64,000 bases of DNA from Pseudoxanthomonas gei (GTDB lineage Bacteria; Pseudomonadota; Gammaproteobacteria; Xanthomonadales; Xanthomonadaceae): contig NZ_QOVG01000001.1 in NCBI RefSeq assembly GCF_010119615.1, positions 62,001 to 126,000 of the forward strand, in the 5' to 3' direction. The notes below the pieces were generated by a model that had not been told where the DNA came from, did not search any database, and was given only the letters and a program-made list of their open reading frames with translations. The first letter of the stretch is position 1. Each line of letters begins with the position of its first letter. A program made the position numbers and the translations under genes. This document shows, one piece after another, positions 62,112 to 63,887 of this stretch.

Positions 62112-62140
62112 AAAGGGCCGCGCAAGCGGCCCTTTCTTTT
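62112..62140 (+). terminator. Rho-independent terminator of the OmpA lipoprotein gene
   Basis: Stem AAAGGGCCGC (62112-62121) with GCGGCCCTTT (62126-62135), GCAA loop, then CTTTTT. Confidence 0.92.
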
Positions 62141-62214
62141 TGGGCGACAGGCAGTGGGAGCGGGGTGTGTCGAGCGGACCGCAGCTTGAACACAGGCTCC
62201 CCGGCTTGAACGCA

Positions 62215-62634
62215 GGCTCGGCGACTCCGGGTGCCTGCCCAAACACCCCGCGCGCTGGCTCCGCAACCCCGCGTGCGGGCTCAGCAACCCCGTGCGCCAC
62301 CTCCAGCACCCCACGCGCCGCCTCGCGAACCCCACGCACGGGGTCCGCGACCCCGCACGCCGACTCCAGCACCCCATGCGCCACCTCGCGAACCCCACGC
62401 ACGGGGTCCGCGACCCCGCACGCGGGCTCGGCGACCCCGCACGCCGACTCCAGCACCCCGCGCGCCACCTCGCGAACCCCACGCACGAGGTCCACGACCC
62501 CACACGCGGGCTTGGCGACCCCGCGCGCCGACTCCAGCACCCCACGCGCCGCCTCGCGAACCCCACGCACGGGGTCCGCGACCCCACGCGCGGGCTTGCC
62601 GACCCCGCACGCCGGCTCGGCGACCCCGCGCGGC
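62215..62634. repeat. 21-bp tandem repeat array, 20 copies
   Basis: Twenty head-to-tail 21-bp units, about 420 bp. In one frame each unit reads as a heptad of the form GSATPHA, DSSTPRA or TSRTPRT. From 62362 the variants are arranged in a higher-order period of four units (84 bp), repeated three times. The array lies between two terminators, and because the unit is a multiple of three several frames are free of stops. No start codon with a ribosome binding site supports translation. I see no relation to either neighbour. Confidence 0.9.
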
Positions 62635-62644
62635 TGTCTTCCAT

Positions 62645-62676
62645 AAAAAAAAGCCGCCTGTGCGGCGGCTTTTTCC
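62645..62676 (-). terminator. Terminator of the helical hypothetical gene (bidirectional shape)
   Basis: Stem AAGCCGCC (62651-62658) with GGCGGCTT (62664-62671), loop of five, eight A on the left and five T on the right. The A-run gives the U-tract on the minus strand, 16 bases after the stop of the gene at 62692. Confidence 0.9.
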
Positions 62677-62691: not shown

Positions 62692-63165
62692 TCAGGCAGC
62701 GGGGTTGGAATCGCTGGACTTGCGAGAGGGGCGTGCGAAGCGCCCGCCAATCTCCTTCCGCAGTTCCTTCAGGCCGTAGGCATCGCCGACCAGCTTGATC
62801 TGGCCGTAGCCGTCCAGGGATACATCCATGATGTCGTTGCCCAAGGCGGCGGTGGTGTCGTCCAGCTGGGAATAAAGCCGTCCCAGCCGTTCCAACACCG
62901 GGCGCAGCCGGTCCAGGGTCACGAAGTCGGCCTGGGCGCCGGCCACGTCCAGCATGGGCGGGACGATGTCGGGGTTGTCGCCCAGCACGCGGATGGTGGT
63001 GCGGCAGAACACTTCGCTCTTGTCGCCCATCCACAGCAGCTTGCGGCGTTCGTCCGGTTCCAGCGAAAGCAGCCCGGGCAGGGCGGCCTCCACCTGGGCC
63101 AGGGCGGCCAGGGCCGCGGCCTGCTGTTCGGGGGTGATGTCCAGCGAGATAAGGTTGAGGCTCAT
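62692..63165 (-). CDS. Conserved hypothetical helical protein
   Basis: 157 aa, cytoplasmic, no family recognised. Several amphipathic helices are expected (TPEQQAAALAALAQVEAALPGLLSL, LRPVLERLGRLYSQLDDTTAALG), with a four-helix-bundle look and a final IGGRFARPSRKS basic tail. The ATG at 63165 has GGAG eight bases upstream. It has its own terminator and no close partner genes. Confidence 0.7.
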   Translation of the reverse strand: MSLNLISLDITPEQQAAALAALAQVEAALPGLLSLEPDERRKLLWMGDKSEVFCRTTIRVLGDNPDIVPPMLDVAGAQADFVTLDRLRPVLERLGRLYSQLDDTTAALGNDIMDVSLDGYGQIKLVGDAYGLKELRKEIGGRFARPSRKSSDSNPAA

Positions 63166-63647
63166 CGGTAACTCTCCATGTTCGATCTGATCAGTGGGTG
63201 ACCCGGGGACCCGGGCCGGTCGTGCCCCGCCGCGTTTTTGGGTGTGCGGCGGGACGAGGGGAAGCGTGGCAGGGGAAGACGGGCGCGGAAATCAGCGGAC
63301 TGCCCGTTGTGGGGTAGGGCATTTGCGTCAATTTGGGTAGGGGAATTCCTACGGGCCCGCGACGTGCCCGACCACCCCCAGCAGGCCCAGCCCCGCAGCC
63401 GCTCACCCGGCCGGCCCGAAACGCCCCCTTTGCCAAAGGGGGCAGGCGCCCGCGCAGCGGGCGACGGGGATTTGCTCTTGATCTTGATCTTGATCTTGAT
63501 CTTGCTTGGGCGGTCCCTCAGCCGAAAGGCCAGAGCAAATCCCCCTCAATCCCCCTTTGCCAAGGGGGAGGCAGACCAAGGTCCGTGAATGTTGCAGGTG
63601 CGCCGCTTGAGGAACACAGTCCCGTGACACTCGCCACAAGGTTCGCC
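63166..63647. other. Intergenic region left of parD
   Basis: 480 bp with no credible gene. The right half is a palindromic repeat element (63423-63568). The left half should hold the promoter of the minus-strand hypothetical gene, but no clear boxes stand out. Confidence 0.5.
63423..63568. repeat. Composite palindromic repeat element with CTTGAT microsatellite
   Basis: Four stems: GCCCCCTTT/AAAGGGGGC (63423-63443), GCCCGC/GCGGGC (63448-63462), an enclosing GGGGATTTGCTC (63466-63477) with GAGCAAATCCCC (63533-63544), and CCCCCTT/AAGGGGG (63551-63568). The large loop carries four and two-thirds copies of CTTGAT (63477-63504). It shares the 18-mer GCCCGCGCAGCGGGCGAC with the rpsR-rplI spacer. 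Confidence 0.75.
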
Positions 63648-63887
63648 ATGGCCACCCTGAAGATATCCATGCCCGACGACCTCAAGGACTTCATTGACGC
63701 CCAGATCGGCGCAAAGGGCTACGGGTCCCGCAGCGAATATCTATGCGAACTGGTCTCGCGGCAGCGTGATGTGGAAAAGCTGCGCAATCTGCTGCTGGAA
63801 GGCGCCAATACCGGACCCGGCAAGGTCGTAACTGAAGACACCTTCAAACGCATGCGGGAAGAACTGCGCGGGCGTGTGCTGGATTGA
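63648..63887 (+). CDS. ParD family type II antitoxin
   Basis: 79 aa ribbon-helix-helix protein. MATLKISMPDDLKDFIDAQIGAKGYGSRSEYLCELV is the RHH DNA-binding domain of ParD, followed by the toxin-neutralising tail (KVVTEDTFKRMREELRGRVL). ParD genes are normally followed at once by a parE toxin gene. In the 113 bases left before the window ends, the frame continuing from its stop gives no ParE-like sequence, so the partner is missing, decayed or starts further on. An ATG at 63648 fits the family start. Confidence 0.85.
   Translation: MATLKISMPDDLKDFIDAQIGAKGYGSRSEYLCELVSRQRDVEKLRNLLLEGANTGPGKVVTEDTFKRMREELRGRVLD

Follow-up and report, generated by a model that had tools for sequence, protein, structure and literature searches.

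RAYT genes and the REP or BIME repeats that accompany them (PMC2817692, PMC3116915) combine a gene with cognate palindromic repeats of alternating orientation. A genome can hold several types, and the repeats are dispersed in intergenic DNA and co-diverge with the gene. The module that we describe here, consisting of a gene for an acidic protein of about 157 amino acids, a terminator, and an array of 21-bp dyad-symmetric units, shares these properties: its cognate repeats are dispersed and co-diverge with the gene. The two differ in their protein, as RAYT/REP has a Y1 (HUH) transposase whereas the module protein contains neither a Y1 transposase nor an HUH motif. They also differ in layout and number. 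A RAYT gene is flanked by two inverted REPs, and REPs number dozens to hundreds in a genome, whereas here a tight array of 9 to 30 units in 21-bp register lies on one side of the gene and solo arrays are few.

Plasmid centromere arrays of the ParR/parC type, in the excerpted account of PMC5016525, likewise place a small protein gene beside short repeats at helical spacing, and orthogonality between types would be common to both. Unlike the arrays described in that excerpt, the module is chromosomal, occurs several times per chromosome together with solo arrays, and encodes a protein for which profile searches recognized no DNA-binding fold; unlike in partition systems, no ParA, ParM, or TubZ motor gene was noticed next to the module in the window. 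Type III toxin-antitoxin systems (ToxIN, CptIN; PMC8860590, PMC4627078) also join a small gene to a tandem repeat array. Their repeat RNA lies upstream of the toxin, whereas the array here is mostly downstream, behind a terminator, and the module has no endoribonuclease family match and no RNA-strand preference. The heptameric G-rich repeats of Xanthomonas are intergenic and come from the same bacterial family, but in the excerpt of that report (PMC4692102) their unit is the 7-bp GGGAATC, which has G-quadruplex potential, and no gene accompanies them, in contrast to the 21-bp dyad units of variable sequence and the partner gene found here. A CRISPR array was considered and rejected, as the units of the window array are contiguous on the 21-bp grid, with no spacers, and PADLOC matches of the partner protein were at chance level. 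We found no description of the module in the open-access literature, and an earlier one may exist elsewhere.

Array and partner gene in the window

The window is the whole 64,000-nucleotide stretch that we analyzed, taken from a 3.43-Mb draft genome of the family Lysobacteraceae (G000). Judged by the ompA-type gene beside the array, the nearest named relatives are Pseudoxanthomonas. The original prediction placed a 20-copy array at positions 62215-62634. Its 21-bp units and 84-bp period are real, while the limits and copy number were slightly off: on a strict grid the array has 19 units in unbroken register, the final one half-degenerate (Table 1). TRF reported period 21 at 62245-62632 (18.5 copies) and scored period 84 higher still (4.6 copies, 85% matches), in agreement with the four-unit super-period and segmental expansion proposed earlier. 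A pattern of the unit matched 17 times in the window, every time within the array, against 1.6 matches expected from shuffles. The gene-sense unit consensus is CGCGGGGTCGCGGAGCCGGCG, and its dyad form is GGGGTC-GCG-GAGCC. We do not consider the array an assembly artifact, because it sits within a 644-kb contig and arrays of like kind recur in many independent assemblies, one of them a single-contig genome.

Table 1. Features of the module and its flanks, in window positions
Feature	Position	Strand	Basis
Terminator of the adjoining ompA-type lipoprotein gene	62112..62143	+	Sequence
Two relic units of another (older) array type	62182..62223		Match to array of the orthologous G037 module
Main array, 19 x 21 bp, dyad-symmetric	62245..62643		TRF, unit pattern, 21-bp grid, dyad test
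Rho-independent terminator, bidirectional-looking, between gene and array	62646..62675		GCCGCCTGTGCGGCGGC with A and T runs either side; detected on both strands
157-aa partner gene, unannotated family	62692..63165	-	ORF; family homologues; arrays adjoining most of 91 homologues

Two terminators flank the array, as had been claimed: that of the ompA-type gene and the bidirectional-looking one. The same ompA gene occurs in relatives that have no module after it, and blastn against their ompA loci showed that the common DNA stops at about 62142. Two relic units of sequence TTGAACRCAGGCTC, with 0.09 such matches expected, lie just past that point. They share 33 of 42 positions with the array of the orthologous G037 module and 20 of 42 with the main array, where the shuffled maximum was 25. 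Judging from this match, the array of the window seems to have changed type.

The array had been described as lacking a host gene, a view that we revise: the neighboring 157-aa ORF, whose stop codon is about 50 bp from the array with a terminator between them, is a regular partner of such arrays in dozens of genomes. Its product is acidic (pI 4.8, against a family median of 5.6) and probably mostly helical, with invariant positions R40, G47, S50, F53, G109, D111, Y120, and G131. Searches of Pfam, NCBIfam, PHROGs, PADLOC, and PDB sequences gave nothing beyond chance for this protein, and profile searches of the same libraries revealed no recognizable DNA-binding domain. Single-sequence structure prediction was uninformative (pLDDT 38). 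We found no homologues of the gene in phages and viral contigs, and an approximate query for a possible Bacteroidota relative gave nothing new. A plasmid search returned one homologue, annotated as hypothetical, on Candidatus Thiodictyon pTs417 (NZ_CP020371.1; L296 3001-3468), where a convincing array is absent.

Several open frames cross the window array, as first noted. An array that encodes a heptad-repeat protein, or is the remnant of such a gene, would fit a unit of seven codons and the one frame that, in 17 first-set arrays, is almost free of stops on both strands (1 observed, about 7.5 expected). We nevertheless regard both forms, of which the original prediction named the remnant, as extremely unlikely. 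An open frame through the repeats is missing altogether from 10 of 61 related arrays, the window frames run into the antisense of the flanking genes, and the symmetry is at the DNA level, with consensus arms that co-vary as DNA complements across modules.

Linkage of gene and array across genomes

With a sample of one genome per species, profile searches found the partner gene in 111 of 395 Lysobacteraceae genomes and in 26 of 54 genera, with up to 9 copies per genome at the threshold used. At a looser threshold, 12 matches were obtained in G135. The gene also occurs in two or more further families of Gammaproteobacteria, represented by G1092, which has the gene and an array of 42-bp period and 98% identity, and by G967, which has many gene copies and lags of 21, 42, and 63 bp. 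The G967 copies or fragments number about ten, and at no fewer than two of these loci the gene is split after residue 44 by a gap of about 42 bp (insert read in L319, reverse complement ~1465-1512).

The unit of the window array recurs at three more places in its own genome (C8:11.5k, C11:375k, and C11:472k), and a sequence-only covariance model built from the arrays of this genome located related 21-bp arrays in other genera. Several weak R1 matches (L163-L175) were dropped as coding-like DNA or as lacking a 21-bp array. Homologues of the partner gene adjoin arrays in G014, G307, G047, and G012, and degenerate copies lie beside two further arrays. When autocorrelation was computed over the 700 bp that follow the stop codon, the best lag came out at exactly 21 or 42 bp for 61 of 91 homologues, and most of the remaining ones have the array upstream of the gene. 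A lag-21 match of at least 0.5 was seen at 47 of the 91 partner-gene loci versus 1 of 72 control loci, all drawn from downstream of a single (ompA-type) gene. At the detection thresholds used, 8 of the 91 had no detected array, and some detected segments were weak. The gene is present in 13 of the 15 genomes with window-type arrays versus 98 of 380 others (p=2e-6).

Arrays occupy one side of the gene only, 3' or 5' according to clade, and none of the homologues has an array on both sides; the clade with the motif LPRNFD has it upstream. On the maximum-likelihood protein tree the array side switches once, against a mean of about 10 after shuffling, which suggests long stable residence. Of 50 modules that carry the array 3' of the gene, 40 show a terminator-like signal no more than 130 nt past the stop codon, compared with 9 of 50 on the opposite strand; ten were also inspected by eye. 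Among the modules read, the neighboring genes vary. Periods other than 21 or 42 bp (20, 19, or 43 bp), some of them near-perfect, occur at L155 1507-1631 and L159 1473-1590 and in L266, L293, L294, and L272; these arrays may either break the rule or have expanded recently.

Register and dyad symmetry

Between modules the arrays show almost no sequence relationship, yet the 21-bp register and dyad symmetry are kept. Each of the first related arrays had period 21, and dyad symmetry was significant in most of them when columns were permuted and the axis was re-chosen each time, as in GATGAGGTC-GCG-GACCTCATC and CGAGTTC-CGG-GACTCG. Dyad z exceeded 2 in 73 of 117 segments overall; the length, phase-break, and arm figures that follow apply to the subset of 61 arrays with a dyad z of at least 2 and a length of at least 190 bp. 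These have a median of 16 units, with a range of 9 to 30 between modules. Despite great substitution between units, 42 of the 61 contain no phase break, and 39 breaks were counted in about 1000 units. Complementarity between the consensus arms extends to 0.68 of positions, compared with a null of 0.48 +/- 0.014 (columns permuted, axis re-chosen). Several arm positions show all four pair types across modules, and therefore the arms changed together between modules. Array similarity climbs with protein identity, from 0.31 at 50-60% to 0.47 at 90-100%, and comes near self-similarity only above 90%. The arrays of the L211, L214, and L244 modules, whose repeats otherwise differ, all contain the AT-rich core TTGGACAAAATTT or a near match to it.

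A neutral explanation would take the arrays as a GC-rich minisatellite family that by chance lies beside the gene and moves with it. The 84-bp segmental expansion, the rapid turnover of array types with older-type relic units in the window, and the several solo arrays between convergent genes are all consistent with this. We consider it unlikely, as dozens of modules, and those of other families too, maintain register and dyad symmetry although their sequences are unrelated, and the array keeps to one side of one gene through the single switch. The simple VNTR offered in the original prediction would likewise leave the gene linkage, the fixed register, and the type-matched solo arrays unexplained.

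Folding of the arrays as single strands is far more stable than that of shuffles (z of -9.8 for the gene-sense strand in the window; mean of about -5 over the 61 arrays), as would be expected if the array were transcribed and worked as a repeat RNA, such as the antitoxin RNA of a type III toxin-antitoxin pair. Several results make this quite improbable. A terminator stands between gene and array, no promoter-like site was found in the window, an Rfam search of the region returned no family, and the partner protein has no match to a ToxN-like endoribonuclease in Pfam, PADLOC, or NCBIfam. Folding showed no strand preference (32 of 61 arrays, p=0.39), G-T (G-U) pairs are not enriched in the arms, and there is no compensation between the arms of single units (z of 0.46). 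Because unit-level compensation and strand preference are both absent, half-sites read independently in double-stranded DNA are favored over RNA hairpins or extruded DNA.

Solo arrays and a proposed protein-bound lattice

The window genome holds five modules; four of their arrays were compared pairwise and all differ, and the fifth matched no other. Solo arrays of the window type number three, those of the C46 type about three, and those of the C22 type about six; the C49 type has weak ones, and no C44-type solo arrays were found in this genome. Of the 11 solo arrays examined there, none overlaps a predicted gene, and five or more sit in the gap between convergent genes. G135, a single-contig genome, has two modules, one matched by about 4 solo arrays and the other by about 9, spread round the chromosome. 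Some solo arrays are plainly decayed modules with a gene remnant: C48:19.6k of the window genome retains the C terminus and terminator of the gene (89% over 600 bp), and C472 retains a gene fragment. G135 contains en-bloc copies of 84-87% over 340-390 bp, and other solo arrays align across the array alone.

The main rival to a bound array is a selfish or mobile element of RAYT/REP-like kind, spread by an unknown mobilizing protein, in which the protein would drive the copying of either its cognate array or the entire module, and the solo arrays would be non-autonomous descendants. The match of solo arrays to module types, the en-bloc copies in G135 and at C48, and the fact that in relatives no module follows the same ompA gene are all compatible with such spread, and the REP units of BIMEs likewise alternate in orientation and coevolve with a gene (PMC2817692). 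We find it doubtful in view of the protein, for which 28 family members gave no match to a Pfam transposase and no HUH signature was seen; a loose HxH occurs in 2 of 91 members, and 40 of the 91 contain no histidine. The one-sided array, its single change of side on the tree, and the mere handful of copies per type also speak against it. The neutral, RNA, and coding readings are less likely.

Across these genomes, gene and array are linked, register and dyad symmetry persist without sequence conservation, array types are diverse, and solo arrays match the types of modules. We propose, with a probability of roughly 50%, that gene, terminator, and array form a two-part module in which the array is a lattice bound by the protein of the adjacent gene. 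A protein-binding array was among the original suggestions and is still the leading one; the binding itself we infer. The 21-bp unit would equal two helical turns, and each turn would carry one of two inverted half-sites, in alternating orientation on the same DNA face. A lattice of dimers is suggested by the inverted half-sites and by the two turns that each unit spans: as a dimer, the protein would bind its own array type cooperatively and keep module and solo arrays together as a single nucleoprotein family. Dispersed solo arrays would then be either sites in trans, for chromosome clustering, or copies left by the spread of the element, and those that are decayed modules fit passive duplication equally well.

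We place binding at about even odds because the protein is acidic, which is unusual for a DNA binder, and has no known fold. The 20- or 43-bp periods of some modules and the 8 of 91 homologues with no detected array also count against it. If a conserved protein reads unrelated arrays, specificity must sit in its variable residues. More tentatively, and with somewhat less confidence than in binding, the modules might represent a kind of bacterial chromosomal element that has not been described before. Its DNA-binding proteins would form a family that switches specificity, with multiple mutually orthogonal members in one genome; each member would have a 21-bp dyad lattice of its own next to its gene and would gather its dispersed satellite lattices. 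Lattice sequence and specificity would turn over together while geometry is conserved.

The gene family is absent from the libraries searched and is tied to arrays whose letters are nearly free and whose geometry is fixed, which is unusual, as in most partnerships of protein and DNA it is the sequence that is conserved. Should the protein bind the array, the modules would constitute a naturally occurring collection of orthogonal DNA-lattice systems and might organize chromosomes. If it spreads arrays instead, they would be a new type of repeat-propagating element with no known transposase.

Past the array of G014, L011 1028-2400 contains many REP-like repeats (CCGGCGTTCGCCGGGATGAC) and an apparent GIY-YIG nuclease gene. 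Near the edge of the window, a small ORF at 63649-63887 resembles a ParD/CopG-type antitoxin, and its toxin, if any, would lie beyond that edge. The window also carries a hexamer array of TTGATC at 63472-63504 (5.5 copies, 96% match), possibly a slippage-prone site.
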